Shown: piece after piece, positions 33,947-53,080 of the stretch
Layout: every line of letters starts with the position of its first letter
Position numbering within the stretch: position 1 is the stretch's first letter
Assembly: GCF_035934735.1 (NCBI RefSeq)
Contig: NZ_CP142396.1
Span: 1,302,001 to 1,366,000, forward strand
Origin: Sedimentibacter sp. MB31-C6
GTDB lineage: Bacteria; Bacillota; Clostridia; Tissierellales; Sedimentibacteraceae
Reading direction: 5' to 3'
Length of the DNA stretch: 64,000 bases
Made by a program: the position numbers and the translations under genes
Notes under the pieces: model-generated
Seen by the model: only the letters and a program-made list of their open reading frames with translations
Databases searched by the model: none
What the model was told of the DNA's origin: nothing

Positions 33947-35108
33947 TATTTCCCTCCAAATATAGAATACCTTTTATGGAAAATCCATCATCACTTCCAA
34001 ATTCAACGTTACCACTATATAACTCCACTCTTTCTCTAATACCCTTAATTCCATATCCTTCAGTTATGTTCTCTGCTCCTACTCCATTATCCTTTATGAA
34101 AAAACTTATAGATTTAAATGAATAATTAAGATTAATATTTATTTTTGTTGCTTTTCCATGTCTTACTGCATTAGTTATAGTTTCTTGTAATATTCTATAT
34201 ATTATATAATTTACATTAGAATTTTTTATTATCTGCTCATTTTCAATTTGAAGTTCAATATCAATACCAGTCTTTTCTGAAAATTCGTTTATAAGATTTT
34301 TTATTTCTTCACACGAAAGATTAGCATTATCTTTTATCCTTAGTGTTTCCACAACTTCCCTTATACCTATCATAGTATCTCTCCCAGTTTCAACTGCATC
34401 TGCTATAAGTTTTTCAGCTTGATTAGAGTCATTTTTAATAAGGTGTTCAGCCATTTGAAGTTGCATTATTAAAGCTGTCATTTTATGACCTAATGTATCG
34501 TGTATATCCCTAGCAATTCTATTCCTTTCTTCTACAATTGATAGTCTTTTTATTTCTTGTGTGTAAAGCTTTAATTGTCTGTTAACATCTAAAAGTTCCT
34601 TATATAATATGTCCTTCTTTTCTTTTTCTTCCTTATTATGTTGTGCAAAACCTGTAACAACAATTATTAATATATTTATCATCAAAAAAAAAGATAATTG
34701 AGAAACGTTAGAATAGTTTAATTTATAATAAATAAGATATACATATTTTATCATTGAGACAAAAAGAGTAAATAACCCAATTAATATTCCATTTCTGAAT
34801 CCCAATGTAAGAGATGCTTCTAAAAGTATTATAATATAAAAGGAATGAAAGAAGTAATTTATAAGTAGTCTAGAATTGTATTCCATAATATAAATAAATG
34901 CTACATCAAGAATAAAAAAAATAATATATAGCTTCTTTTCTTTTTTAAAAGAAGCTTTTACAAATCCTGTAGTTAAGTAAAATAAGAACACAACAACAAG
35001 TATATATAATCTTATTTGCTGTGGATTTTCAAAATATAGCGCTCCTAAGAATAAAAACAGTGATACAACTAATTTTAATAGATACAAAAGTCTTTTATCT
35101 TTTATCAT
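33939..35108 (-). CDS. Sensor histidine kinase (HisKA_3 type)
   Basis: The 389-residue kinase has about six N-terminal membrane segments (residues 1-155) with almost no external loop, a coiled linker, a HisKA_3 dimerisation domain with the phospho-His in NRIARDIHDTLGH, and a HATPase domain (NAVRHGKATK, GYGIKGIRERVELY). Short-loop kinases of this sort often sense envelope stress or an exporter state. It is the first gene of the six-gene operon with the response regulator, lipoprotein and exporter. Confidence 0.92.
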   Translation of the reverse strand: MIKDKRLLYLLKLVVSLFLFLGALYFENPQQIRLYILVVVFLFYLTTGFVKASFKKEKKLYIIFFILDVAFIYIMEYNSRLLINYFFHSFYIIILLEASLTLGFRNGILIGLFTLFVSMIKYVYLIYYKLNYSNVSQLSFFLMINILIIVVTGFAQHNKEEKEKKDILYKELLDVNRQLKLYTQEIKRLSIVEERNRIARDIHDTLGHKMTALIMQLQMAEHLIKNDSNQAEKLIADAVETGRDTMIGIREVVETLRIKDNANLSCEEIKNLINEFSEKTGIDIELQIENEQIIKNSNVNYIIYRILQETITNAVRHGKATKININLNYSFKSISFFIKDNGVGAENITEGYGIKGIRERVELYSGNVEFGSDDGFSIKGILYLEGNND

Positions 35109-35190
35109 AAACTACCCCTAAGAGTTTTTTATATATTCTACCATATTTATGTAATTTAAAAAACATATTTATTGTACATTTGTCGGATAA

Positions 35191-35216
35191 AAATTCTTAA
35201 CTTCGTTCAGAATGAC
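35191..35216. repeat. GTCATTCTGAACG-type repeat, copy 1
   Basis: The complement reads GTCATTCTGAACGAAGTTAAG AATTT, close to the GTCATTCTGAACGCAGTGAA copy at 40454. It lies in the 238-bp spacer between the histidine kinase and kamE, near a palindromic element and the kamE terminator. Confidence 0.65.
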
Positions 35217-35228
35217 AATAAAAAGAGA

Positions 35229-35267
35229 TTATATCGGAAAGGAGAACTTTCCTATATAATAAAAAAA
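35229..35267. repeat. GGAAAG...CTTTCC palindromic element, copy 1
   Basis: A stretch of 31 bases starting GGAAAGGAGAACTTTCC at 35236 is identical to the element at 51311-51342. Here the left arm has one mismatch (TATCGG for TATAGG). In both places it sits just beyond the terminator of a minus-strand gene. Confidence 0.75.
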
Positions 35268-35288
35268 AGAGGGTAACCCTCTTTTTTA
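35262..35288 (-). terminator. Terminator of the lysine operon
   Basis: GAGGGTAACCCTC at 35269-35281 is flanked by A- and T-runs, giving a stem extended by A-T pairs and a T-run on the minus strand. It lies about 60 bp after the kamE stop. Confidence 0.85.
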
Positions 35289-35346
35289 AATAACAACTGC
35301 TTAACATTGCTCGTCTATTAGCTTTATCTTTGCTCAACAATTGTTT

Positions 35347-36105
35347 TTAAACTAATTTTCGATTTACTACTTCTTCTACTACGAAAGTTGCTACGTGGTT
35401 TGCATAGCTGCCTGTTCCAAATCCTGCATCATAACCAAGTTCTTGTGCAAGTTCATGAGATAAACGAGGACCGCCACATATTAAAATAATTTTGTCTCTT
35501 AATCCTTCTGCTTCCATCATTTCAACTAATTGAGTTAAATTAGCTATATGAACATCTTTTTGTGTTACTACTTGTGATACTAAAATAGCATCTGCTTTTA
35601 CTTCTATTGCTTTTGCTATTAATTCTTCATTTGCAACTTGGCTCCCCATATTAATGGCTTCAATACCTTTATATCTTTCTAGCCCGTAATTACCGTCGAA
35701 CCCCTTCATATTCATAATAGCATCAATACCAACCGTATGTGCATCTGTACCCGTACATGCTCCAACAATAACGACATCTCTTTTAATCTTTTCTTCTATA
35801 AAATCTTCTACTCCATGCATATCCATAAATTCCATATCAACTTTAGGAACTTCAATTGATGTATAATCAACTGTATGAGTACATTTACCATACATTACAA
35901 AGTAAGTGTATCCTACACCTAAGTCTTTTGAATAAACAACTGCTGGATTTTCAAATCCCATTTTTATAGCAAGTTGTCTAGCTGCTTCACTAGCTTCATC
36001 ACCATAAGGTACTGGTAAAGTAAAGCTCATTTGTATCATTCCGTCATTTAACGTATCACCATAGGGTTTAACTTTTGTTAAATCTACTTTTTGCATATCT
36101 GACAT
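35347..36105 (-). CDS. kamE: Lysine 5,6-aminomutase, beta subunit
   Basis: This 252-residue subunit carries the B12-binding domain: D121-A-H123-T-V-G126 is the DxHxxG base-off motif, followed by GSQVANEEL and ICGGPRLSHELAQELGYDAGFG. Lys146 in LERYKGIEA corresponds by position to the PLP-binding lysine known in the clostridial enzyme. With KamD it moves the epsilon amino group of beta-lysine (or lysine) to the next carbon. ATG overlaps the kamD stop by one base (TAATG), with GGGAGG upstream. Last gene of the operon. Confidence 0.96.
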   Translation of the reverse strand: MSDMQKVDLTKVKPYGDTLNDGMIQMSFTLPVPYGDEASEAARQLAIKMGFENPAVVYSKDLGVGYTYFVMYGKCTHTVDYTSIEVPKVDMEFMDMHGVEDFIEEKIKRDVVIVGACTGTDAHTVGIDAIMNMKGFDGNYGLERYKGIEAINMGSQVANEELIAKAIEVKADAILVSQVVTQKDVHIANLTQLVEMMEAEGLRDKIILICGGPRLSHELAQELGYDAGFGTGSYANHVATFVVEEVVNRKLV

Positions 36106-37661
36106 TACTTTGCACCTCCCAACATTAATTCAATAAATGGGTTGAAGTAGTCTTCATCTTTTTTAATTACACCATCAAGGCCTTTTCCTCCAGTAAAGCT
36201 TCTCTTAACTCCGCCAAATTTACCTTTTTCAATAGTATCAAAAATTCCTTCCGAATCTATATCTTTAAGAAGTTCTTCGGCTTTAGAAAGTACTTCTTGC
36301 GCCCTTGACTGAATAATTCCATCTTTCTTAAATTCAACTTCATCTCCAATATTTTTCGCATTATTGAATATATATTGAGCATTTTCAATAGACAACATTC
36401 TATCTTGAAGATGAGGAGTGTGTATTGCTTCTGTTGGCATTCCTAATAGTTGTAATCCCTGATGCGTCCATATTGATATAAAGTTAAACATAGCATCTTG
36501 TAAATGACCTCTAAATATATTACCTGTCATAAATTTAGTAGGTGGCATATATTTCAAAGGAGCATTAGGGAATATTTCTCTTGCCATTTGAGCTTGTGCA
36601 AGTTCTAATAAAAATCCATTTTCTAATGTTGGGTTCATTTCAAAAGCATGCCCTAATCCCATTTGCTCTTCTGGAATTCCAGCTTTTAACGCAAATTGTT
36701 CATTTATAAACTGAGAAGCCAAAACTGTGTGAGCTTCCTCTACTGCATCAGCAGTAGTTAAATAATTGTCTTCACCAGTATTTATTATAATTCCAGCATA
36801 GCCATTAATTATTCTTGAGAAATATTGATCAACTAATGTTCTCTGCATATTAATATCTCTAAATAATATACCGTAAAGAGCATCATTAAGCATTACATCA
36901 AGTCTTTCAAGAGCTCCCATTGCTGCTATTTCTGGCATACATAATCCAGAACAATAATTACAAAGTCTAATGTATCTTCCTACTTCTTCTCCAACCTCAT
37001 CAAGAGCCTTTCTCATAATTCTAAAGTTTTCTTGAGTTGCAAAAGTACCACCAAACCCTTCAGTTGTAGGTCCATATGGTACATAGTCAAGTAAACTTTG
37101 AGCAGTTGTTCTAATAACCGCTATTATATCAGCTCCTTGTCTTGCAGCTGCTTGAGCTTGAATTACATCTTCATAAATATTTCCTGTTGCTACAATTACA
37201 TATAAATATGGCTTATTACCTTCTCCAATGGTATTAAGATAGTTGTCTCTTTTTTCTCTATTATTTTTAATTCTTTCTACCATTTGTTGAGCTATTGAAT
37301 AAACAGCATCCATGATTTTTTTCTCGTCAGCAATTGGTAACTTTGTTATATCAATTTCCCCTGAGCTGACTTTTTCTGCAACTTCTTGAGGGGTATTTCC
37401 TGTTTGTACCATTGCATTTCCAATCCAAAATGCTGCACCTTTTCCTAATCCGCCACCTTCTTTAATATTGTCAATTAATACATTTGGAAGGGGTTTTTCA
37501 ATTTCATCAACACCATCTACTCCCATTAATCTTGCAACAGTTCTTTCAACAGTTACAGTTGTGTGTACATCAATAAATTCTTGAACATTTTCTGCTATAT
37601 TATTGGCTGATGAACGTGCACTATCAATTAGCTGGGAGTTAAGATTTAATTTACTTTCCAT
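36105..37661 (-). CDS. kamD: Lysine 5,6-aminomutase, alpha subunit
   Basis: The 518-residue subunit forms the TIM barrel for substrate radical chemistry. Characteristic stretches are TVERTVARLMGVDGVD, LPNVLIDNIKEGGGLGKGAA, PYLYVIVATGNIYEDV and LMPTEAIHTPHLQD-like (GMPTEAIHTPHLQDRM). Length fits the family (about 516). The frame continues upstream to 37715, but ATG at 37661 has AAGGAGG spaced 5 nt and starts at the usual MESKLNL. It follows kamB after 84 bp and is coupled to kamE. Confidence 0.95.
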   Translation of the reverse strand: MESKLNLNSQLIDSARSSANNIAENVQEFIDVHTTVTVERTVARLMGVDGVDEIEKPLPNVLIDNIKEGGGLGKGAAFWIGNAMVQTGNTPQEVAEKVSSGEIDITKLPIADEKKIMDAVYSIAQQMVERIKNNREKRDNYLNTIGEGNKPYLYVIVATGNIYEDVIQAQAAARQGADIIAVIRTTAQSLLDYVPYGPTTEGFGGTFATQENFRIMRKALDEVGEEVGRYIRLCNYCSGLCMPEIAAMGALERLDVMLNDALYGILFRDINMQRTLVDQYFSRIINGYAGIIINTGEDNYLTTADAVEEAHTVLASQFINEQFALKAGIPEEQMGLGHAFEMNPTLENGFLLELAQAQMAREIFPNAPLKYMPPTKFMTGNIFRGHLQDAMFNFISIWTHQGLQLLGMPTEAIHTPHLQDRMLSIENAQYIFNNAKNIGDEVEFKKDGIIQSRAQEVLSKAEELLKDIDSEGIFDTIEKGKFGGVKRSFTGGKGLDGVIKKDEDYFNPFIELMLGGAK

Positions 37662-37745
37662 AATTACCTCCTTTTTTTCTTTAAGATTCTTCAATATATT
37701 TAAAGTTATAATCACTTACCACTTCAATTCTGCATTACCTATTAT

Positions 37746-39335
37746 TCAAATATACTTTTCTGCATCTTCTATAATTTTATCGTATATTCCTGCCATTTTT
37801 GCTATTCTCAAAGCATCCTTTGGTATGAAGTTTTGATATTGTACTTCGATTAATCTATAATCCATATACTTTGATATTTGATCAATATTGTTAATTGTTA
37901 TCATTCCAGTATCTTCAGGAAGTTTTAAACCTGCAACCTGTAAATTTTGTATATCACTATCATTAGCAACATTATCATAATGCGTTGTAAGTACTGTTAT
38001 ACAATCTTTGCTTTTCAAAAAATTTATTACAGCCTTTGTAATGGCATAACCTTCCTTTGGATTTGTACCTCCAGCAAGTTCATCAATTAAAATTAAAGAT
38101 CTTTCATCAGAATAATCTAACGCTTCTTTTAAATTTACTATTTCTGCCCCAAAGGTACTTAATCCCTTTTCAATAGACTGATCATCTCCCACTGATATAC
38201 TTATATGGTCGAATAAACATATTTTTGCATATTCACAAGGAACTAACATACCGTAACTTGCAGCTGCTACAATTTGTCCAATCATTCTAAGACTTACGGT
38301 TTTGCCCCCCATATTTGCTCCAGTTATACAAATAACTTTTTTATTTATGTTCAAATCTACTGGGATATATTCATTGTGTTTTTCTTTTAATGTTTTTTCT
38401 AATTTGAGGTTTCTACCACCTTTTATTATTATTTCAAGGTCAGATGTTATTTCTGGTTCAACTGATTTTGTTTTTTGCCCATAATTCGCTTTAGCAATAA
38501 TATAATCAACCCTTCCTATGATATGCATATTTCTTATAAATACATCATAGGAACTTTTTATTTCCTTGGAAATATTTTGTCGAATTTTATATTCTTCATT
38601 TTCTTCATCTATTGACAATACATCCAATTTATGCTCTAATTCATCTATTTCTTTATTGTTTTTAATTATATATATAATGTTTAAATAATTTTCACCTGAT
38701 ATTCTAAGATTTTGTTCTGCATTTAATGCTTCTATTTTATCTTTCTGTGATTTATTTACAATTACTTCATTTTTTAAATTAAGTTTAACGTTATACTTTT
38801 TTTCTATTTCTTCTTTTATTTGTTTTTTTAATATTCTAATTTTCTTATCTGTTTCTTTTTTATCTTTACGTATAATCCTTAATTTATCTGAATATTCATC
38901 ATAAATATAATAAGTATTCATTTTTTCATTTGCTGGATCTAATAATTCAAATAGATGTGGCAAAAGCGTTAATTTTAAATCTTCTATGGATAAAATGCCC
39001 CTTAAAATTCTCTCCATTTTTTCTACTTGTATTAGAAAGTTTTTAACTTCAAATAATTCAACTTCATCTAATACTTGATTATTTTTAGCCCGTTCTATAG
39101 TTTCGATTATATTTTTAGTATGTCTGAGAATATCTATAACATTTCGCCTTTTGCTTGTTTCAATAAATGCCCTAATTTTATTGAATTCTTGTTTTAGGTC
39201 CGCCTCTTGACCCTTTTTAAATGGTTTAGCTTCTAGCTTAGACTTAATGCCATATTCCGTTATTGGTCTTACTTCATTAAATATATAATCAAAATTTATA
39301 TTTTTTTTCGTATTATCTGTCATGAAAATTTTCAA
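37746..39335 (-). CDS. kamB: MutS-related protein KamB, aminomutase reactivase subunit
   Basis: The 529-residue protein has a MutS core/clamp-like helical region and a MutS ATPase domain with Walker A TGANMGGKTVSLR, LGTFGAEI-like STFGAEIVNLKEAL, Walker B SLILIDELAGGTNPKEG and TTHYDNV. It lacks mismatch-binding domains. KamB proteins are encoded in lysine aminomutase operons and, with KamC, are annotated as reactivating factors that replace damaged cobalamin; the mechanism is inferred from the family. The start is a TTG at 39335 overlapping the kamC stop (TTGA), with GGTGA upstream; an ATG 12 nt further in is an alternative. Confidence 0.88.
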   Translation of the reverse strand: MKIFMTDNTKKNINFDYIFNEVRPITEYGIKSKLEAKPFKKGQEADLKQEFNKIRAFIETSKRRNVIDILRHTKNIIETIERAKNNQVLDEVELFEVKNFLIQVEKMERILRGILSIEDLKLTLLPHLFELLDPANEKMNTYYIYDEYSDKLRIIRKDKKETDKKIRILKKQIKEEIEKKYNVKLNLKNEVIVNKSQKDKIEALNAEQNLRISGENYLNIIYIIKNNKEIDELEHKLDVLSIDEENEEYKIRQNISKEIKSSYDVFIRNMHIIGRVDYIIAKANYGQKTKSVEPEITSDLEIIIKGGRNLKLEKTLKEKHNEYIPVDLNINKKVICITGANMGGKTVSLRMIGQIVAAASYGMLVPCEYAKICLFDHISISVGDDQSIEKGLSTFGAEIVNLKEALDYSDERSLILIDELAGGTNPKEGYAITKAVINFLKSKDCITVLTTHYDNVANDSDIQNLQVAGLKLPEDTGMITINNIDQISKYMDYRLIEVQYQNFIPKDALRIAKMAGIYDKIIEDAEKYI

Positions 39336-40360
39336 TTTAAATCACCGCCTGACACCACATCAACTATTTTAATATTTGGAATGAAATGTTTTATTTTATT
39401 TTTAAAATCCTCACTGTCAAAAAAGTATCCTGATGGAGAAACTGGATTCAATGATACTGCTATTACTTTAATAGTATTAAATGTAGCAACTTTCAATCCT
39501 TTTCGTTTCAGTTCATTCCATATATTAATATCAACAAATACCTTTGTACCATCTTCAATTACTACTTCAAAGTTTTTTAAAAATTCATTTTGGCATAAAT
39601 CCCTTAACAAAATTGAGGTAACAGCTCCTTTAATAAAAACATGAGTTGTATTTTTATCGATAAGTTCACTGATTTTTTTGCCACCAGTAATGCTAGTTTC
39701 TATATCAGGTAGAATCACATCTCCTGTATTCTGAATAATACAAGATTTGTTTTTTATAGATATAAGTTTCTTTACATTTTCATCTACCTGCTTTAACGTA
39801 TAACATCCAACTGTATGAGCTGTCTTTTCAATTACCTTTTTCATATCTCTACTCAATACAGCACCTGTTGAAATAACACATGCATCTGTAATAACTGGTG
39901 AAGATACAGCCTTTCTGTCAATAGCACCGTCTATAAACACAACTTCTGCGCCATAATATTTAAGTTTTCTGCTAATATATTTCATATCTATAGCACTGAC
40001 AGGTCCTGCAATCTGCATATTGCCTCTCTGTCTAACTTTAACAATTATGACTTCTCCCATAGGAGTATTAATACCTGTTGTTTCTAATATTTCAACCTTA
40101 GCGTCTGATAGCATTAAGGCTTTTTTTGCGGTTGCTATGAACATACCTTCCGTTACAAGGATTGATGGCTTTTGTGTATCTGTTACAAGATCTAAGTTTT
40201 CTCCATCTCTACCTGTAGATGTTATGCCTATAATTATATTATTATTTTTTGCTTCTTCTATGAGATAATTGAGAGTAACAGTCTTGCCTGCATTTTTTGC
40301 TAATCCAATAATTGATATGGTTTTGTAATTTTCTTGTTTGATAATTTCAATTAGTCTCAT
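39332..40360 (-). CDS. kamC: KamC, P-loop ATPase of the aminomutase reactivase
   Basis: This 342-residue protein starts with a P-loop (ISIIGLAKNAGKTVTLNYL) followed by GITSTGRDGE and VEILETTGINTPMGE. No other common ATPase domain was recognised. Proteins of this type occur beside KamB in lysine 5,6-aminomutase operons and are named KamC. The stop overlaps the kamB start by 4 bp. It lies 132 bp after kamA, with a GTCATTCTGAACG repeat in that gap. Confidence 0.87.
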   Translation of the reverse strand: MRLIEIIKQENYKTISIIGLAKNAGKTVTLNYLIEEAKNNNIIIGITSTGRDGENLDLVTDTQKPSILVTEGMFIATAKKALMLSDAKVEILETTGINTPMGEVIIVKVRQRGNMQIAGPVSAIDMKYISRKLKYYGAEVVFIDGAIDRKAVSSPVITDACVISTGAVLSRDMKKVIEKTAHTVGCYTLKQVDENVKKLISIKNKSCIIQNTGDVILPDIETSITGGKKISELIDKNTTHVFIKGAVTSILLRDLCQNEFLKNFEVVIEDGTKVFVDINIWNELKRKGLKVATFNTIKVIAVSLNPVSPSGYFFDSEDFKNKIKHFIPNIKIVDVVSGGDLN

Positions 40361-40453
40361 AAAATCCCCTTTTTCATCAATAGAGATTCTACATCTGCGC
40401 CTCAGAATTATAACGTATTAGACATACTACGAAACCGAATATGCTCTTACCTT

Positions 40454-40481
40454 GTCATTCTGAACGCAGTGAAGGATCTCC
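40454..40481. repeat. GTCATTCTGAACG-type repeat, copy 2
   Basis: GTCATTCTGAACGCAGTGAA followed by GGATCTCC is a well-known type of dispersed bacterial intergenic repeat. It sits inside the lysine operon between kamA and kamC; the related copy at 35191 is in the opposite orientation, so the two bracket kamC-kamE. Confidence 0.75.
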
Positions 40482-40492
40482 ATTGTTTTTTA

Positions 40493-41743
40493 TTAATGTT
40501 TAGTTCTGTCTCTTCTTGCTAATTTTGTTGGTTCAAGAGCTAATTCATCACCTTGAAGTAATCCAGCAACTCCTGTTAAAGGATCCTCTTTTTTACCTTG
40601 ACATACATCACATGTACATTCTAATTCTGGTAAATGTGGCTCAGTATATGTTGTTATAACGCCTTCATAGTTTCTTAAAATAACTTTATCAGCTGATTGT
40701 GATAATACATAGTTTGGCATTACAGGTATTTTACCGCCACCACCAGGAGCATCGACAACAAATGTTGGTACTGCATATCCTGATGTATGACCTCTTAAAC
40801 TTTCAATTATTTCAATACCTTTTGCAACAGGTGTTCTAAAATGCTCAATACCTAAAGAAAGGTCACATTGATAAATATAGTATGGTCTTACTCTGTTCAT
40901 AACTAATTTATGAACTAAATCTCTCATAATATGAGGGCAATCATTTACTCCTCTTAACAATACTGATTGATTTCCTAAAGGTATACCTGCATCAGCAAGT
41001 TTTCTTAAAGCTTCCATTGATTCTTCTGTAAACTCATTTGGATGATTAAAATGAGTATTTAACCAAACTGGATGATATTTTTTAAGCATATTTACTAAAT
41101 CATCAGTGATTCTTTGTGGCAAAACAACAGGTGTTCTTGATCCAAGACGAATTATTTCAACATGTGGTATTTCTCTTAATTTCTTAAATATATATTCTAA
41201 CTTTTCATCAGAAACTAATAAACAATCTCCTCCTGATAATAAAACATCTCTTACTACTGGAGTATTTCTTATATATTCTATACATTTATCTATATTTTCC
41301 ATTGAAACTTCGTCGTCACATTGTCCAGCAAATCTTCTTCTAGTACAGTGTCTACAGTACATAGAACATTGATCAGTTATTAAAAATAATACTCTGTCTG
41401 GATATCTATGAGTTAAACCAGGTGCCGGTGAATCTGTGTCTTCATGCAATGGGTCTAACATATCAGCTGAACTTACATGAGTTTCGACGAATGTTGGAAC
41501 TGCTTGCATTCTAATTGGATCTCTTGGATCATCTTTATCCATGTGAGCTGCATAATATGGTGTGATACCCATTCTGAATTTTTCCAATACTTTTGCAATA
41601 TCTTCTTCTTCTTTTTTAGTAAAATTAATTACCTTTTTTAATTTTTCTACGGAGTCTAATCTGTTTTCAACTTGCCATTTCCAGTCATTCCATTGCTCAG
41701 GTTTTACATCTTTCCATAATTCAATCTCATTGTAGTAAGTCAT
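40493..41743 (-). CDS. kamA: Lysine 2,3-aminomutase (radical SAM)
   Basis: The 416-residue enzyme converts L-lysine to L-beta-lysine using SAM, a 4Fe-4S cluster and PLP. The cluster motif is C126-SMY-C130-RH-C133, followed by TRRRFAGQ. The region GGDCLLVSDEKL and the PLP-lysine region VVDAPGGGGKIPVMPNY match the family, as does a C-terminal zinc-type C-x-C-x2-C (ECTCDVCQG). Start ATG at 41743 has TGGAGG. It lies 82 bp after kdd in the same operon. Confidence 0.97.
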   Translation of the reverse strand: MTYYNEIELWKDVKPEQWNDWKWQVENRLDSVEKLKKVINFTKKEEEDIAKVLEKFRMGITPYYAAHMDKDDPRDPIRMQAVPTFVETHVSSADMLDPLHEDTDSPAPGLTHRYPDRVLFLITDQCSMYCRHCTRRRFAGQCDDEVSMENIDKCIEYIRNTPVVRDVLLSGGDCLLVSDEKLEYIFKKLREIPHVEIIRLGSRTPVVLPQRITDDLVNMLKKYHPVWLNTHFNHPNEFTEESMEALRKLADAGIPLGNQSVLLRGVNDCPHIMRDLVHKLVMNRVRPYYIYQCDLSLGIEHFRTPVAKGIEIIESLRGHTSGYAVPTFVVDAPGGGGKIPVMPNYVLSQSADKVILRNYEGVITTYTEPHLPELECTCDVCQGKKEDPLTGVAGLLQGDELALEPTKLARRDRTKH

Positions 41744-41825
41744 TTTAATACCTCCATAATTTTATTTATAAATAGGCAAAATACTAATTAAGTTCAAATA
41801 ATCTTAATTAGTATTTTATCTTAAA

Positions 41826-42866
41826 TTAAGCGTACAATTTAGTGTATAAATCTCTCATTTCCTTACTTTCTCTCATTATTTGAAGAGATGTATCTGCATG
41901 TCCTTTAGTATATCCATTACCTATAATCATATTTATGTCTTTTCCAACACCTTCAGCACCTAATGCTGCTTTAGTAAAGCTTGTTGCCATGCTGAAGAAG
42001 TATACTGTTCCTTCATCCTTAGTTGCAAGTATAGATGACATTTCACAATTAGGTCTAGATACACAGCTAATAACTAAATCACATAGTTTACCATCTGTAG
42101 CTTCCATTACTTTATCATAAACTTCCATAGCATTTGTTGCATCTCCTGATATACATACATCAGCTATACCTAATTTTTTTACTTTTTCAAGTGATACTTC
42201 TCTATGAGCCCAGCATATAACTTTTCCATTAGGACCAGCTAATTTCTTTGCTTCATATAGACACAATATACCTGATTTTCCTGCACCGCCTAATACTAAA
42301 ACAGTGTCTCCTTCTTTAACAAGTTTAACTGTTTGAGCTGGAGCTCCTGCTACATCTAGAACAGATAATGCAAGGTTTTCTGGTATATCATCTGGTAATT
42401 TTGCATAAATACCACTTTCAAATAATATAGCTTTACCTTTAATATCAACTTGGTCTATATCTTTTCTTACTGCAGTAATTTCTTCAATAACTAATGGAGT
42501 TAAAGATAATGAAACTAATGTTGCTATTTTATCTCCAACTTTTAAATCAGTTTTACCTTCTAATGCAGGTCCTATTTCTTCAACAGTTCCTATAAGCATT
42601 CCACCTGATCCAGTTACAGGGTTTTGATGTTTACCTCTATCAGCAACTATTCCCTTCATTATAACTTTAATTTTTCCTTCATCTCCACCAGCTTGATCTT
42701 TAATCTGTGTAAAACTAGCTGAATCAACATTTAATGTTTGTACATTAATTCGTATTTCGTTGTCATATATTTCCATAGAGTTGTCAATTTTTGTTGCTGG
42801 TTGTGGTAAAACACCTTTTGGTTCAATAACACGATGAGTTCCATATGGGTTTCCTTTTTTAATCAT
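41826..42866 (-). CDS. kdd: L-erythro-3,5-diaminohexanoate dehydrogenase
   Basis: The 346-residue protein has a zinc-alcohol-dehydrogenase-like fold with a Rossmann motif VLVLGGAGKSGILCLYEAKK. The start IKKGNPYGTHRVIEPKGVLP is characteristic of Kdd, which oxidatively deaminates 3,5-diaminohexanoate to 5-amino-3-oxohexanoate with NAD. It is the promoter-proximal gene of the operon kdd-kamA-kamC-kamB-kamD-kamE and lies about 65 bp from the start predicted by a sigma-54 promoter. kce and kal, often adjacent, are not in this window. Confidence 0.94.
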   Translation of the reverse strand: MIKKGNPYGTHRVIEPKGVLPQPATKIDNSMEIYDNEIRINVQTLNVDSASFTQIKDQAGGDEGKIKVIMKGIVADRGKHQNPVTGSGGMLIGTVEEIGPALEGKTDLKVGDKIATLVSLSLTPLVIEEITAVRKDIDQVDIKGKAILFESGIYAKLPDDIPENLALSVLDVAGAPAQTVKLVKEGDTVLVLGGAGKSGILCLYEAKKLAGPNGKVICWAHREVSLEKVKKLGIADVCISGDATNAMEVYDKVMEATDGKLCDLVISCVSRPNCEMSSILATKDEGTVYFFSMATSFTKAALGAEGVGKDINMIIGNGYTKGHADTSLQIMRESKEMRDLYTKLYA

Positions 42867-42943
42867 AGTACCTCCTAAAATTTACTTTCTTTTTAATTAA
42901 TTTTTGGTTGGGTTGAATATGGGTTTATTCATAAAACTAAGTT

Positions 42944-42958
42944 GCAAGTATTGTGCCA
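42944..42958 (-). promoter_or_regulatory. Sigma-54 promoter of the lysine fermentation operon
   Basis: On the minus strand TTGGCAC-AATAC-TTGCA is a full match to the -24/-12 consensus, with GG and GC 12 nt apart. The predicted start is near 42932, about 65 nt before kdd. A PAS-AAA-Fis activator gene lies 1.6 kb away at 44554. Confidence 0.88.
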
Positions 42959-42992
42959 ACTTTTTAATTAGTTGGCAAAAAAAATATTTAGC

Positions 42993-43052
42993 TAATTTTC
43001 AACATAAAAATATGTATTTCTTTTATATGTTTTTTTTAAGTGCCGAAAATTA
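42993..43052. promoter_or_regulatory. Candidate upstream activator sites for kdd
   Basis: TAATTTTCGGCAC occurs on the minus strand (complement of 43040-43052), and TAATTTTCAACAT on the plus strand at 42993-43005, giving an inverted pair. The first differs by one base from the direct repeats before the activator gene at 44506 and 44527. The sites lie about 40-100 bp upstream of the -24 element, a normal distance for enhancer-binding proteins. Confidence 0.6.
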
Positions 43053-43192
43053 ATCATGTATTAGTTTTTATGCTAATTCATCAGTTATAAATAGTATTAC
43101 ATTTAATTATATTTATCATTCAACTTATTTATTGATTTTTCATATAATATATGAAATAATAGTATTATATTTTAATAGAAAAGGATAATAAA

Positions 43193-43999
43193 ATGGATAA
43201 TAGACCTATTGGAATTTTTGATTCTGGCGTTGGCGGACTTACTGTAATGAGAGAAATTATAGAGCAACTTCCCTATGAAAATCTTATATATTTTGGTGAT
43301 ACAGCTAGAATACCATATGGATCAAAATCAGTTCAAACAATAAAGAAATATGCATTTCAATGTGCTTCTTTCTTGAAAAGCAAGGACGTAAAAACAATAG
43401 TTATTGCATGTAACACTGCTAGTTCAATTGCTCTTGAACACCTTCAAAACAATTTTGATTTACCCGTTATTGGAGTAATCGAGCCTGGTTCTAGAAGTGC
43501 TGCTTCTGCAACAAAAAATGGTCGTATTGGCGTAATTGGTACTATAGCTACTATTAACAGTAATGCTTACCAATCAAAAATCATGGAGTATAAACATGAT
43601 TCTGAAGTTATCGGTATACCTTGTCCACTTTTTGTTCCAATAATTGAGGAAGGTTGGGAATATTCAACTGTAGCAGAATTAACAGCTGAAAAATATCTTA
43701 CGGAATTAATTGAACATGATGTAGATTCATTAGTATTAGGATGTACTCATTATCCAATATTGAGATACACAATTAAAAAAGTTGTGGGACCAAATGTTAA
43801 ACTTGTAAATCCAGCCTTTGAAACTGCTCGAGATTTAAGAAAACTCCTAACAGATGAAAATATACTCAATGAAAACTATGAAATACCTAACTATGAGTAT
43901 TATACAAGCGATGCACCTGAACGGTTTAGGAGAATTGGAGGTAATTTTTTAAAAAAAGAAATAGATAATTTATATGAAATAGCTATAGATAATCTTTAG
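43193..43999 (+). CDS. murI: Glutamate racemase
   Basis: This 268-residue enzyme makes D-glutamate for peptidoglycan. The two catalytic cysteines lie in ACNTASS and LGCTHYPIL, with the N-terminal GIFDSGVGGLTVMREI and the PYGSKS loop. Length fits the family. ATG at 43193 follows AAAAGGAT. It is transcribed divergently from the lysine operon and is followed after 44 bp by a DUF1934 gene. Confidence 0.95.
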   Translation: MDNRPIGIFDSGVGGLTVMREIIEQLPYENLIYFGDTARIPYGSKSVQTIKKYAFQCASFLKSKDVKTIVIACNTASSIALEHLQNNFDLPVIGVIEPGSRSAASATKNGRIGVIGTIATINSNAYQSKIMEYKHDSEVIGIPCPLFVPIIEEGWEYSTVAELTAEKYLTELIEHDVDSLVLGCTHYPILRYTIKKVVGPNVKLVNPAFETARDLRKLLTDENILNENYEIPNYEYYTSDAPERFRRIGGNFLKKEIDNLYEIAIDNL

Positions 44000-44043
44000 T
44001 AAACTCTTTTAGATAAAACACAACAATAAGGATGTGAAACAAC

Positions 44044-44463
44044 TTGGAAAATGTTAAAATTAAAATAGTTACGATTCAAACAATTGATGATGCTGGTAAT
44101 GAAGATACTATAGAGCTTGTTACAGAAGCTAAGATTGATAAAACAGATGAATGCTTTATAATAGATTATGATGAAAGTGATATTACTGAAACTAAAGAAA
44201 GTAAAACTAGACTAAAAATATATAAAGATAAAATGCTTATGACAAAAATCGGAACTTTTTCTTCTAAAATGGAATTTGAAAAAGGGAAGAACTTTCAAAA
44301 CATTTATTCTACGCCCTATGGAACTTTTGACTTAAATTTTAGCACACTATGTTATGAATATAATCTGAATAACAAAGGAAAAGGTAGTGTTTATGTAGAG
44401 TATAAAATGGTTTTTGGTAAATCAAGTAAAAATTATAATAAATTAAAGATTGATATTTTATAA
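44044..44463 (+). CDS. DUF1934 (YwiB-like) beta-barrel protein
   Basis: The 139-residue protein resembles DUF1934/YwiB proteins: CFIIDYDESDITETKESKTR near residue 38, MEFEKGKNFQNIYSTPYGTF near 77, and LCYEYNLNNKGKGSVYVEY near 100. Its function is unknown; a calycin-like barrel is known for the family. The start is a TTG at 44044 with AAGGATG upstream; the nearby ATG at 44051 is in another frame. It is 44 bp after murI, probably co-transcribed. Confidence 0.8.
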   Translation: MENVKIKIVTIQTIDDAGNEDTIELVTEAKIDKTDECFIIDYDESDITETKESKTRLKIYKDKMLMTKIGTFSSKMEFEKGKNFQNIYSTPYGTFDLNFSTLCYEYNLNNKGKGSVYVEYKMVFGKSSKNYNKLKIDIL

Positions 44464-44505
44464 ACATACTTTTATGAAAAATATATAAATACGAACATTG
44501 TAGCC

Positions 44506-44539
44506 TAATTTTCGGCATTCTATGCATAATTTTCGGCAT
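44506..44539 (+). promoter_or_regulatory. Direct repeat TAATTTTCGGCAT x2, 21 bp apart
   Basis: Identical 13-bp copies at 44506-44518 and 44527-44539 are exactly 21 bp (two helical turns) apart, just before the RBS of the sigma-54 activator gene. The same motif, with one change, recurs upstream of kdd. Inferred to be the activator's own binding site, giving autoregulation. Confidence 0.65.
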
Positions 44540-44553
44540 ATGAAAGGAGCAGT

Positions 44554-45960
44554 ATGGAAAGAAAATATTTTGATTGTTTAATTCAGGCGATTGATCTAAT
44601 TAATGACGGAATACATATTGTTGACAGAAGCGGAAAAATTGTATATTACAATGCTGCAGCTAAACGTTTAGATGAAATAGATGTAGACAAAGCAATTGGC
44701 AGGCATATATTAGAAGTTTACCCATCACTTACTTTTGATACAAGTACATTGATAAAAGTATTAAATACAGGTAATCCAATTTTTAATATTGAACAAAATT
44801 TTATCAACTATAAAGGTGATAAAATTTCTACAATTAATTCAACACTTCCTATTATATATAACAATAAAATAGTTGGTGCAATGGAAGTATCTCGTAATAT
44901 TACTGAAGTAAGGGTTTTATCTGAAAAAATTATTAACCTTCAGAGGGAACTATATGAAACTAATAATACAAGTGTAGAAAAAATAAAAAAGCCTAAAGCA
45001 CATTATACTTTTATTGATATAATTGGTCAAAGTAAGGAAATGCTTAAGCTTAAGACTCTAGGATTGAAGGCTGCCATGTCAGATTCTCCTGTCATGGTCT
45101 GTGGAAATACAGGTACAGGTAAGGAGCTATTTGTACAATCTATACATAATTCTAGCAATAGAAAAAATAAACCCTTTATTGCTCAAAACTGTGCAGCTTT
45201 ACCTTCTAACTTATTGGAAAGCATTTTGTTTGGTTCAGTTAAAGGGAGTTTTACTGGTGCTGAAAATAGACCTGGATTATTTGAACTTGCAAATAATGGG
45301 ACATTGTTTTTAGATGAAATTAACTCTATGCCTCTAGAACTTCAAGCTAAGTTATTAAGAGTTTTACAAGATGGACGTATAAGAAGGGTTGGGTCAAGTA
45401 ATACTATTGATGTTGATGTAAGAATTATATCAGCTATTAATATAGATTTAAATGAAGTTATAGAAAGTAAACAACTAAGGCAAGATTTATTTTATAGACT
45501 AAATGTAATTACTTTAATAATCCCAGATTTATCAAAACGAAAAGAAGATATTTCAATTTTAATAGATTATTTTATAAAAAAGTATAATGATAAATGTAAA
45601 AAATTCTTTAACGGCGTATCTAAAGAGGTTTTAGATATTTTTATGGATTATAGTTGGCCTGGTAATGTAAGGGAACTCGAACATGCAATTGAAAGTGCAA
45701 TTAGTCTTTATGATGGTGACATAATTAGAGAAGAACATTTGCCATTTCAGTTTAAAAATTTTCACCCTACTAAAAATTTTACTTTAGATACAAATGTTAT
45801 TCAACCACTAAATACTGCTGTAGAAAAAGTAGAGAAGGAAATAATTACATCAGCCTTAGAACAGACAGATTATAATATATCAAAAGCTGCAAAAATAATA
45901 AATGTTCCACGTCAAACTTTACAATATAAAATAAAAAAATTAGATATACCTTTTAAATAA
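44554..45960 (+). CDS. Sigma-54 dependent activator (PAS-AAA-Fis), probable lysine operon regulator
   Basis: The 468-residue regulator has an N-terminal PAS domain (INDGIHIVDRSGKIVYYNAA), a central AAA+ domain with Walker A CGNTGTGKELF and Walker B GTLFLDEINSM, and a Fis-type helix-turn-helix at the C-terminus (ISKAAKIINVPRQTLQYKIK). The sigma-54 contact loop reads GSFTGA rather than the usual GAFTGA. It would bind upstream sites and activate -24/-12 promoters in response to a PAS-sensed signal. Position and shared 13-bp motif point to the kdd operon as target. Confidence 0.9.
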   Translation: MERKYFDCLIQAIDLINDGIHIVDRSGKIVYYNAAAKRLDEIDVDKAIGRHILEVYPSLTFDTSTLIKVLNTGNPIFNIEQNFINYKGDKISTINSTLPIIYNNKIVGAMEVSRNITEVRVLSEKIINLQRELYETNNTSVEKIKKPKAHYTFIDIIGQSKEMLKLKTLGLKAAMSDSPVMVCGNTGTGKELFVQSIHNSSNRKNKPFIAQNCAALPSNLLESILFGSVKGSFTGAENRPGLFELANNGTLFLDEINSMPLELQAKLLRVLQDGRIRRVGSSNTIDVDVRIISAINIDLNEVIESKQLRQDLFYRLNVITLIIPDLSKRKEDISILIDYFIKKYNDKCKKFFNGVSKEVLDIFMDYSWPGNVRELEHAIESAISLYDGDIIREEHLPFQFKNFHPTKNFTLDTNVIQPLNTAVEKVEKEIITSALEQTDYNISKAAKIINVPRQTLQYKIKKLDIPFK

Positions 45961-45965
45961 AAAAT

Positions 45966-46010
45966 CTAAGTCCGAACCTAATTGAAAAAAGTCCGGACTT
46001 AAATCTGTTA
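45966..46010. terminator. Possible terminator after the activator gene
   Basis: TAAGTCCG at about 45967 can pair with CGGACTTA at about 45996, and the compact palindrome AAGTCCGGACTT lies at 45991-46002. The region separates the activator from the convergent cupin gene. The T-run is weak. Confidence 0.45.
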
Positions 46011-46367
46011 TTTATGCTGTTCTGTATATAAAATTAAAGATACAAATTCCAAATCGCAATCACCAATATTTTCTATTCCGTGAAAATTACCATCAAAACA
46101 TACCATACAGTCGCCAGGTCCTAAAATTTCATCTTTCCCGTTATCACAAACTTTAGCAGTTCCCTTTAAAATATAATAAGTCTCATTATCACCCTTATGC
46201 TCGTGATAACCTATGGAACCTCCAACAGGAATTGTACTTACTCCAAAAAGCCTTCCAACTCCATTACTATCCTTTTCTTCTAAAAAATTAATAACTTTTA
46301 CTGTATCTCTTCCACCTTTTAGGTTGTGTTCTTCTTTTATTCTTAATTCCTTTGCCTTTTTTATCAT
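46008..46367 (-). CDS. Cupin-domain protein
   Basis: The 119-residue single-domain cupin has motif 1 GGSIGYHEHKGDNETYYILKG (metal-binding His/His/Glu) and motif 2 PGDCMVCFDGNFHGIEN with the final histidine. Such small cupins can be enzymes or metal/ligand-binding proteins; no substrate can be deduced. GAGGTG precedes the ATG at 46367. It stands between the activator gene and spoIIR. Confidence 0.85.
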   Translation of the reverse strand: MIKKAKELRIKEEHNLKGGRDTVKVINFLEEKDSNGVGRLFGVSTIPVGGSIGYHEHKGDNETYYILKGTAKVCDNGKDEILGPGDCMVCFDGNFHGIENIGDCDLEFVSLILYTEQHK

Positions 46368-46469
46368 ATCAATACACCTCTATCTTTTATAGTTTTTTAT
46401 ATTGTAATTACTTACTATATTTTTGTCAAGTGAACTAATTTATCTAAAGGTATTAAAATAATTTGCTAT

Positions 46470-47183
46470 TTATTTATCTGAAAGTGATTCTGCAAATATG
46501 TTTATTTCTTTACTGTAATTTACTCCACTATTTTCTACTCTTCCTTTTTCGATAAATTCAAATATTTTAGATTTAAGTTTTATATCCTCAACGCCCCTTT
46601 TTGTTTTAATTAACTCAATTTCTTCTTCAGTAAGAATTTCATTTAATTTTTTTTCAGTATCTACATCAAATACTGGCTCACCTTCTTTAATGCTTCCAAA
46701 ATCGACAAAACATAAAGGAGGAAACATAACACACCACCAATTATTACCTTCAGCTTTTCCAATCTCAATCCTTACAGCATCATAATTTCCTTCTGGTAAT
46801 ACTATTTCTTCATATTGTTTTCGAGGAAACTTATAATTACCATAATATACGTTTATTGGATAATTATATCCCTCTAATTTAATTGTTTCTTCTGATTTCT
46901 TTCTAATATCGCTTATTTTTTCTATAATTATTTTTTCGCTTTCATATTTTGTAGAAATCACTTGAAATTCCTTGTTAAAAGAATTTATAATATTATTTCT
47001 AATTTTATATTTAAGTTGCTGATCTTCAAAAGTATTAGAATTTGCAACTACATGAAGTCTAATAACTTTGTCGTTTATTTCGCACATACTAGAATAAACT
47101 TCTACTATATATGCGGTAGTAATAGCTAATATTACAAATAATATTGATAAAATCACTTTCTTTTTGTAATTAAAATATTGCAT
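46470..47183 (-). CDS. spoIIR: Stage II sporulation protein R
   Basis: The 237-residue protein has one N-terminal membrane segment or signal (ILSILFVILAITTAYIVEVY) and the SpoIIR core: KVIRLHVVANSNTFEDQQLK, GNYDAVRIEIGKAEGNNWWC and MFPPLCFVD. SpoIIR is secreted from the forespore and triggers SpoIIGA to activate pro-sigma-E in the mother cell. AGGAGG precedes the ATG. It lies 36 bp after the gerC-type gene, so it may share the germinant receptor transcript. Confidence 0.93.
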   Translation of the reverse strand: MQYFNYKKKVILSILFVILAITTAYIVEVYSSMCEINDKVIRLHVVANSNTFEDQQLKYKIRNNIINSFNKEFQVISTKYESEKIIIEKISDIRKKSEETIKLEGYNYPINVYYGNYKFPRKQYEEIVLPEGNYDAVRIEIGKAEGNNWWCVMFPPLCFVDFGSIKEGEPVFDVDTEKKLNEILTEEEIELIKTKRGVEDIKLKSKIFEFIEKGRVENSGVNYSKEINIFAESLSDK

Positions 47184-51397: not shown

Positions 51398-53080
51398 TTA
51401 TAAATTGTATTTTTGTTTTTTTCGAACTAATGTAGAAATATCAATTCCTAATTTACTAGCAGCTTCTTTCATGTTTTTTGAGATAGCTAATGAATTTTCT
51501 ATTATTTCCCTTTCATATTCATTCATCTTTTCCTTTAATGTTTTATTATCAAACATTAACATATTAGAATCTTCCATACCTATTTCTGATTCATTCATCA
51601 TTAGATGCTCTCTATACATGTTTGCATCTATAAAAGCATCATCTGACATAAGGACTAACCTTTCAATAATATTTTTAAGCTCCCTAATATTTCCTGGCCA
51701 TTCATATAGTAAAAAACTTTCCAAACAACTAGTTGTAAAAAAACAGTTTTTACCATATTTATTATTATAATATTCTAAAAATTCATGAGCCAAAGGAATG
51801 ATGTCTTCCTTCCTAAGTCTAAGAGGCGGAATTACAAATCGAACTACATTTAACCTATAATATAAGTCAGCCCTGAATTTCTTATCTTCCACCAATTGTT
51901 TTAAGTCTGCATTAGTTGCAGCTATAATTCGTGCGTTAAATTCTACTGTTTTAGTACCACCTATACGATAAAATATCCTGTCGTTTATGGCACTTAAAAG
52001 TTTCACCTGCAAAGTATATGGCATATCACCTATTTCATCTAAATACAATATTCCACCATTTGCTTCTTCGAAAAGGCCTTTTTTACCACCTTTTTGAGCT
52101 CCTGTAAATGCCCCTTCCTCATATCCGAAAAATTCCGACTCTAAAAGATGTTCTGGAACTGCGCTACAATTTATTTTAATAAATTTACCATCTTTACAAT
52201 TACTAATATTATAAATATAAGTTGCTATAAAGTCTTTGCCAACACCTGTTTCTCCTAATATTAATATAGTGCTATCTACTGATGCAATTTTTTTAGCCCT
52301 ACTATAAATATTTTTCATCTTATCATTATTTAATATTAGTAATGGCTCCTTATTTATCTCTTTTGTCTTTAAATCATATTCATTATTTTTTATATAAAAA
52401 TTCTTTTCTTTAGTAATACTTTTCATAAGAACATCTAATTCTGATACATCTCGAATTACTGCAATTGTTTTAGATAATTTACCATTTTCATCAAAAATAG
52501 GCGACCCTGAAACTAAACATCTTTGGCCTTTATAGTAATTATTAATTGTGGATACTGGACCCTTTGTTTCTATGACCTTTGCACAACACGAATTTGGCAA
52601 AACATTTAAATTTCTTAGATTATAAACTGTTTTCCCAATAATTTGTTCTCTAGTTAATCCAGATAAATTTAAAAAAGCGTCATTAACATAAATTGTTGTA
52701 CCTTCTTCATTAGTAATATAAATTCCATCATTTAATTTATTAAACATTTCATTATATAAATATCTCTGTCTGTTTAATCTTTTAATTTGTTTTTCTAGTT
52801 CTTTATCAAGAGAAAAATCATAAAAGAAAAAAGCATATAATTCATATTTGTAAAGCTTAAGTTCTTCATGTATTACATAATATTCTGTATTATCAATATA
52901 CTTTACAGGATAAAGATAATTATCTTTGTCAACATCAATATTATTAAAATAAATAGTAATTTTCTTATTCAAATATTTTTTATTTTTGCATATATGTTTC
53001 TTAAAATATTCATTACTAAATAATACATTAAATTTATTGTCTGTTATAACAAATCCAGTATATATATGTTGAAGCTTCAT
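51398..53080 (-). CDS. Sigma-54 dependent activator (PAS-AAA-Fis), probable thl-atoDA regulator
   Basis: The 560-residue regulator has an N-terminal domain of about 115 residues, a PAS domain (LNDGIYITNEEGTTIYVNDA), a second linker, an AAA+ domain with Walker A GETGVGKDF, an intact GAFTGA loop and Walker B GGILYLDEIGDM, and a C-terminal Fis-like helix-turn-helix (KEAASKLGIDISTLVRKK). It is divergent from the thiolase/CoA-transferase operon, which has a sigma-54 promoter, and is thus the likely activator of that operon. The signal is unknown. Confidence 0.92.
   Translation of the reverse strand: MKLQHIYTGFVITDNKFNVLFSNEYFKKHICKNKKYLNKKITIYFNNIDVDKDNYLYPVKYIDNTEYYVIHEELKLYKYELYAFFFYDFSLDKELEKQIKRLNRQRYLYNEMFNKLNDGIYITNEEGTTIYVNDAFLNLSGLTREQIIGKTVYNLRNLNVLPNSCCAKVIETKGPVSTINNYYKGQRCLVSGSPIFDENGKLSKTIAVIRDVSELDVLMKSITKEKNFYIKNNEYDLKTKEINKEPLLILNNDKMKNIYSRAKKIASVDSTILILGETGVGKDFIATYIYNISNCKDGKFIKINCSAVPEHLLESEFFGYEEGAFTGAQKGGKKGLFEEANGGILYLDEIGDMPYTLQVKLLSAINDRIFYRIGGTKTVEFNARIIAATNADLKQLVEDKKFRADLYYRLNVVRFVIPPLRLRKEDIIPLAHEFLEYYNNKYGKNCFFTTSCLESFLLYEWPGNIRELKNIIERLVLMSDDAFIDANMYREHLMMNESEIGMEDSNMLMFDNKTLKEKMNEYEREIIENSLAISKNMKEAASKLGIDISTLVRKKQKYNL

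Follow-up and report, generated by a model that had tools for sequence, protein, structure and literature searches.

The lysine fermentation genes of Sedimentibacter sp. MB31-C6 raise the question of which promoter drives them and which regulator switches that promoter. The original prediction, made within a 64,000-nucleotide stretch of the genome (the window), was that sigma-54 controls these genes from a −24/−12 promoter before kdd. Sequence comparison was used to establish the promoter, the candidate regulatory sites, the partnership of the operon with a neighbouring activator gene, the conservation of this arrangement and a case of its joint loss. These comparisons make it very probable that the kdd operon is transcribed from a sigma-54 promoter switched by the neighbouring PAS-AAA+-Fis protein via dyad sites, and that this protein controls its own gene as well.

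The operon, its promoter and the neighbouring activator gene

The operon genes were assigned with NCBIfam models, and all six scored above the respective cut-offs. The genes, their promoter, their terminator and the neighbouring activator gene are as follows.

42943-42959, minus strand: −24/−12 sigma-54 promoter of kdd, TTGGCACAATACTTGCA (exact match, conserved in relatives)
41826-42866, minus strand: kdd, L-erythro-3,5-diaminohexanoate dehydrogenase, first gene of the operon (NF052381, 279.7 bits; cut-off 200)
40493-41743, minus strand: kamA, lysine 2,3-aminomutase (TIGR03820, 636.5 bits; cut-off 525)
39332-40360, minus strand: kamB, lysine 5,6-aminomutase reactivase subunit (NF052386, 385.6 bits; cut-off 210)
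37746-39335, minus strand: kamC, lysine 5,6-aminomutase reactivase ATPase, MutS-like (NF052383, 557.3 bits; cut-off 300)
36105-37715, minus strand: kamD, lysine 5,6-aminomutase alpha subunit (NF052384, 953.7 bits; cut-off 600)
35347-36105, minus strand: kamE, lysine 5,6-aminomutase beta subunit (NF052385, 421 bits; cut-off 280)
35263-35287, minus strand: intrinsic terminator 3′ of kamE, the sole one found in 35000-46500
44554-45960, plus strand: enhancer-binding protein with a PAS domain, an AAA+ sigma-54 activation domain (GSFTGA, Walker A/B intact) and a Fis-type HTH (domain and structure matches)

The order kdd-kamA-kamB-kamC-kamD-kamE differs from the one originally given, in which kamC was wrongly placed before kamB. 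Since the single terminator lies after kamE, the whole kdd-kamE operon would depend on one activator.

The promoter lies ~77 bp ahead of kdd. As predicted, it is a full match on the minus strand: TTGGCAC-N5-TTGC, with the −24 GG and the −12 GC, occupies 42944-42958 exactly, and a pattern search returned no other zero-mismatch −24/−12 in the window. Pattern searches of the 3.0-Mb genome, on which all genome-wide statements here are based, found six exact copies, the kdd promoter among them, and 49 matches with at most one mismatch, compared to five with the reversed control. One gene for RpoN (sigma-54) was identified in the genome (PF04552, E 1.8e-66). No lysine riboswitch or other Rfam element reached the gathering threshold in 34000-47000. 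By these patterns, kdd appears to start from a true sigma-54 promoter and to have a dedicated activator encoded nearby.

The PAS-AAA-Fis gene that had been predicted 1.6 kb away was found at the position listed above. Its AAA+ domain matched PF00158 with 219 bits, its C-terminal HTH was of the HTH_8 type, and the Walker motifs, G[SG]FTGA and the recognition helix PRQTLQYKIKK were conserved. The structure model (pLDDT 81, pTM 0.56) had sigma-54 activators among its top fold matches, which gave no hint of the PAS ligand. The protein therefore combines the features of an enhancer-binding protein, namely Walker A/B, a GAFTGA-type loop, a Fis HTH and dyads upstream of its target, to which it is predicted to bind. 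The best NCBIfam match was PrdR, the proline reductase regulator, with which the PAS side, the AAA+ domain and the Fis HTH align. The activator is not PrdR, however, as it scored 424.7 bits with NF041552 against a cut-off of 795 and is without the first ~130 residues of PrdR, the match starting at model position 135.

Orthologues of the activator adjoin kdd in at least 15 families. In the window and most congeners the two genes are divergent with murI and a DUF1934 gene between them; elsewhere they are divergent with DUF1934 alone or, in other families, co-directional with the activator directly upstream. The orthologues beside kdd scored at least 548 bits while the next activator scored at most 468, and 30 sampled kdd-linked activators formed one clade with 100/100 support. 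The intervening murI (43193-43999) and DUF1934 gene (44044-44463), present in most of the genus, stay put even in a congener without the activator (G009). A second sigma-54 activator domain in the window, at 51839-52336 on the minus strand, had no link to the kdd operon as far as examined.

Conservation of the promoter among relatives

The original prediction had proposed that absence of the −24/−12 motif from relatives sharing the operon would speak against it, and this comparison was carried out with 61 genomes of the genus, family and order. KDD was found in 49 of these genomes, and the stretch from activator to kdd was compared in 52 copies plus that of the window. Of the 53 copies, 49 had a perfect TGGCAY-N5-TTGC no more than 450 bp from kdd, compared to 0.05 expected from dinucleotide shuffles; this and the following counts ignore kinship, the genomes within the genus being close and this genome set overlapping the named collection used below. 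The motif was thus conserved and the prediction was not refuted. Outside the family of the window, 26 kdd copies from 14 families comprised 23 with a perfect −24/−12, two with one mismatch and one with none in range; the kdd promoter is therefore not merely a relic of recent ancestry.

The promoter and the activator gene also occurred together. In the named collection of 80 loci, the promoter was perfect in 55 of the 57 that had an activator next to kdd vs. 3 of the 11 that had none (Fisher p = 9e-7, kinship ignored). At least two of these three (L223 and L239) are second kdd copies, with the activator adjoining another copy in the same genome. Among the loci that lack the promoter are those of Porphyromonas levii, other Bacteroidales, a Peptoniphilus and a Riflebacteria bin. 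Congener G009 (L125, G009:C36:4000-9400) has kdd, kamA, murI and DUF1934 in place and has neither an activator orthologue nor a −24/−12 before kdd; judged by its gene content, it is a natural co-loss of the activator and the sigma-54 promoter of kdd. Together with the RpoN gene, the conservation and the co-occurrence support the predicted sigma-54 control of the lysine genes.

These observations bear directly on whether a housekeeping sigma-A promoter could drive the operon, with the −24/−12 having arisen by chance in AT-rich DNA. The region has many sigma-70-like matches (68, as in shuffles, with a mean of 69), but a −24/−12 conserved far above chance, found with the activator gene and lost jointly with it in G009 leaves this explanation exceedingly improbable. 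A secondary sigma-A promoter in addition to the sigma-54 one is possible.

Extra kdd copies at L131, L136, L141, L155 and L170 had no neighbouring activator or kamA in the stretch examined and kept the −24/−12, mostly along with a TGCC dyad of the kind described below. Their upstream regions suggest that these copies are controlled in trans.

Dyad sites before kdd and the activator gene

An inverted pair of TAATTTTC motifs upstream of kdd was part of the original prediction. Both motifs are present, at 42993-43000 and, as GAAAATTA, at 43045-43052, and they sit 33-92 bp upstream of the −24 box. They do not form a simple 13-bp inverted pair, however; when upstream regions of relatives were aligned on the promoter, the true unit was a 16-bp dyad, TGCC-N8-GGCA, three quarters of which is the core TAATTTTCGGCA. 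Two good dyads before the activator gene had been absent from the predicted set. The sites, none of which has a strand, are as follows.

43041-43056: predicted upstream activator site 1, dyad TGCCGAAAATTAATCA (minus strand: TGATTAATTTTCGGCA), centre 90.5 bp from the −24 box
42989-43004: predicted upstream activator site 2, degenerate dyad (minus strand: TGTTGAAAATTAGCTA), 52 bp from site 1, centre to centre
44502-44517: tandem dyad 1 before the activator, AGCCTAATTTTCGGCA, TGCC-N8-GGCA
44523-44538: tandem dyad 2 before the activator, TGCATAATTTTCGGCA; it follows dyad 1 at exactly 21 bp, and 15 bp separate its end from the ATG

In the window, site 1 matches six of the eight dyad letters and site 2 four of eight. 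The main kdd dyad lies 76-82 bp from the −24 box in nearly all congeners, compared to 90.5 bp in the window, and by inspection a sequence similar to site 2, gttgaaaattagct, is found at a like place in most of them. Perfect TGCC-N8-GGCA preceded 19 of the 53 kdd copies (0.12 expected), and with one mismatch allowed the dyad preceded 30 (2.8 expected). A clear dyad before kdd was not found in L149, L152, L153, L158, L162 and L167, where the activator and a promoter, perfect or with one mismatch, are present.

The exact core TAATTTTCGGCA occurs four times in the 3.0-Mb genome: once before kdd, twice before the activator and once, at C1:180585, inside a nicotinate phosphoribosyltransferase-like gene. 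This last copy was dropped as a further target given its position within a coding gene, as was a near-copy at C1:1444435 with an exact −24/−12 at 1443858, both inside coding genes. As far as these searches indicate, the regulon is small, consisting of one operon and the activator gene itself. Two further genes of the pathway, kce (C1:1177066, NF052387 above cut-off) and kal (C1:2593019), are unlinked to the kdd operon. No −24/−12 with fewer than two mismatches was found in the 3-4 kb examined for them, and no dyad lay near their starts in this genome; having neither promoter nor dyad, both were rejected as co-regulated targets. The predicted control of lysine fermentation would consequently apply to the first steps of the pathway, and does not extend to the later genes kce and kal, which lie elsewhere without a sigma-54 promoter.

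The distribution of the dyads also helps to identify the regulator. Since the genome holds 21 full-length sigma-54 activator domains, and recognition of the dyad by the neighbouring protein is itself inferred, kdd could be driven by another of its ~20 sigma-54 activators. Against this, the same dyad stands before kdd and before the neighbouring gene, the exact core is found nowhere else outside coding DNA, and adjacency and co-loss both point to the neighbour. We consider control by another activator very improbable.

The dyads before the activator gene are a strictly spaced pair. A pair spaced by 21 bp, with at most three mismatches in 16 letters, preceded 33 of 47 activator orthologues, compared to 0.02 expected from shuffles, whereas every other spacing from 16 to 29 was found in 0-4 orthologues. 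The pair ends close to the ribosome-binding site of the activator, and no −24/−12 was detected within 150 bp of the orthologue starts. From this placement, the activator probably controls its own gene. Self-repression would be the simplest form of such control, and the most likely one, because the sites are packed close to the ribosome-binding site, with no sigma-54 promoter in the vicinity. In other families (e.g., L147, L148, L160, L165, L221 and L241) a hairpin-capable palindrome, GGCAC-N4..6-GTGCC, was observed upstream of the activator; in L160, for example, it reads TTAGGCACGAAAGTGCCTAA. This palindrome and the left half of tandem dyad 1 overlap.

The tandem dyads might instead, or besides, serve as a distal enhancer of kdd, which lies ~0.8-1.8 kb away in the gene arrangements observed. 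Sigma-54 activators are able to act from more than 1 kb, and in many families, some without a clear proximal dyad, the tandem dyads are better conserved than those next to kdd. However, the tandem dyads hug the activator ribosome-binding site whichever way kdd points, and most kdd promoters have a proximal dyad at 48-150 bp. A distal enhancer is thus rather unlikely, and the tandem dyads could also combine the roles of operator and distal enhancer.

Under the preferred reading, with an autoregulatory operator at the activator gene, we infer a course that includes binding, ring assembly, activation, a single transcript and repression at the activator's own gene. Sigma-54 RNA polymerase would wait as a closed complex at 42943-42959, from where kdd-kamA-kamB-kamC-kamD-kamE would be transcribed. 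The activator would bind TGCC-N8-GGCA at 43041-43056, with support from the weak site at 42989-43004, and would assemble its AAA+ ring on these dyads. Once its PAS domain perceived a signal, presumably lysine supply or the state of the pathway, the promoter would be opened through ATP hydrolysis. Binding to the two dyads in its own leader, two helical turns (21 bp) apart, would allow the activator to control its own synthesis, most likely by repression.

A second activator type and relation to known systems

Ten loci (L218, L222, L228, L229, L244, L251, L258, L261, L270 and L273) have a perfect kdd promoter and no activator of the window type; these loci have therefore retained sigma-54 control under a different activator. 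Beside kdd, each encodes a protein of ~690-730 residues with an N-terminal KDD-like domain, an AAA+ domain and an HTH, which is HTH_50 in the two proteins scanned. The example at L228 is as follows.

2626-4704 of L228: KDD-type activator, a KDD-like domain fused to AAA+ and HTH

The N-terminal ~335 residues of the KDD-type activator are homologous to KDD (31% over 332 residues, E 2e-51), and the predicted fold is shared with 3,5-diaminohexanoate dehydrogenase (PDB 7dl0, 7dl1, 7dl3 and 7dl7; Foldseek E about 5e-24). Unlike the enzyme, the domain is fused to AAA+ and HTH and its glycine-rich NAD(P) loop is gone: GGAGKSG of KDD is replaced by GNNLLTN or similar, and GxGxxG was lost in 10 of 10. 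Three members scored 142-150 bits with NF052381, below the enzyme threshold of 200. The KDD-type activators formed a clade of their own apart from the window type (100/100). The same fused type was found beyond these ten loci in L284, L285, L287, L288 and L292, beside kdd or a kdd paralogue.

The DNA upstream of these genes carried a different dyad, GAACC-N6-GGTTC, which was present with at most one mismatch in 8 of 19 regions compared to 0.05 expected, sharply at N6. Eight of the ten loci (L222, L229, L244, L251, L258, L261, L270 and L273) have a perfect divergent −24/−12 upstream of the fusion gene. The gene opposite the fusion gene, where read, resembles kal, 3-aminobutyryl-CoA ammonia lyase, as we take it to be from sequence and context. 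Based on this layout, the two halves of the lysine pathway appear to lie on either side of the fused activator and to be under its control. In L284, L285 and L287 the KDD-type activator is clustered with a BKACE enzyme, a TRAP-type transporter and a KDD paralogue (~52-54% identical); these genes may encode a related diamino acid catabolic pathway that has yet to be described.

The KDD-like domain would sense a pathway intermediate. We lean toward a scheme in which lysine fermentation in Clostridia is a sigma-54 regulon with two activators, the PAS type and a KDD paralogue without the NAD loop, the latter reading 3,5-diaminohexanoate or its keto product and acting on kdd and often, via a divergent promoter, on kal.

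A lysine 2,3-aminomutase gene under sigma-54 control has been described before. In Bacillus thuringiensis HD73, as summarized in one published description (PMC4428206, citing Zhang et al. 2014), the PAS-containing sigma-54 activator KamR adjoins kamA, which has a −24/−12 of TTGGCATAACTATTGCT, and the early activity of the kamA promoter disappears when SigL is lost. By that description, the two systems share a lysine 2,3-aminomutase gene with a PAS sigma-54 activator next to it and a −24/−12; however, it concerns a spore-forming aerobe and includes no kdd or kamBCDE, whereas the window has an anaerobic lysine fermentation set with kdd first (PMC4428206). Lysine 2,3-aminomutase was also reported to be enriched among sigma-54 targets in Bacilli (PMC12316311).

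A reconstruction of sigma-54 regulons in Clostridiales (BMC Genomics 2019) distinguished 39 EBP groups (PMC6615313). Among those it describes, PrdR, OrdR, LeuR, HiaR and MdeR are likewise EBPs beside an amino acid fermentation operon, with dyads and a −24/−12. Its Table 1 and main text contain no lysine operon or EBP of one (no kamA, kdd or lys), and relative to these parts TGCC-N8-GGCA with its 21-bp autoregulatory pair would be a further EBP group. Sigma-54 with a PAS activator on a lysine 2,3-aminomutase gene is thus already known from the B. thuringiensis description, and the control of kdd is new to the literature searched, in which no report was found of sigma-54 control of kdd or of dehydrogenase-type sensor domains in sigma-54 activators.

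Many anaerobes ferment lysine, and its transcriptional control was undescribed in the literature searched. The comparison yields a specific regulator, a DNA site (TGCC-N8-GGCA) and a predicted regulon of one operon and the regulator itself, all of which are directly testable. The KDD-type activator is a more surprising by-product than the system in the window. If the scheme is true, it would show with unusual clarity how a catabolic enzyme can be recruited to sense its own pathway, with the sensor encoded beside the ancestral enzyme, and two activators would exchange places on a conserved kdd promoter.
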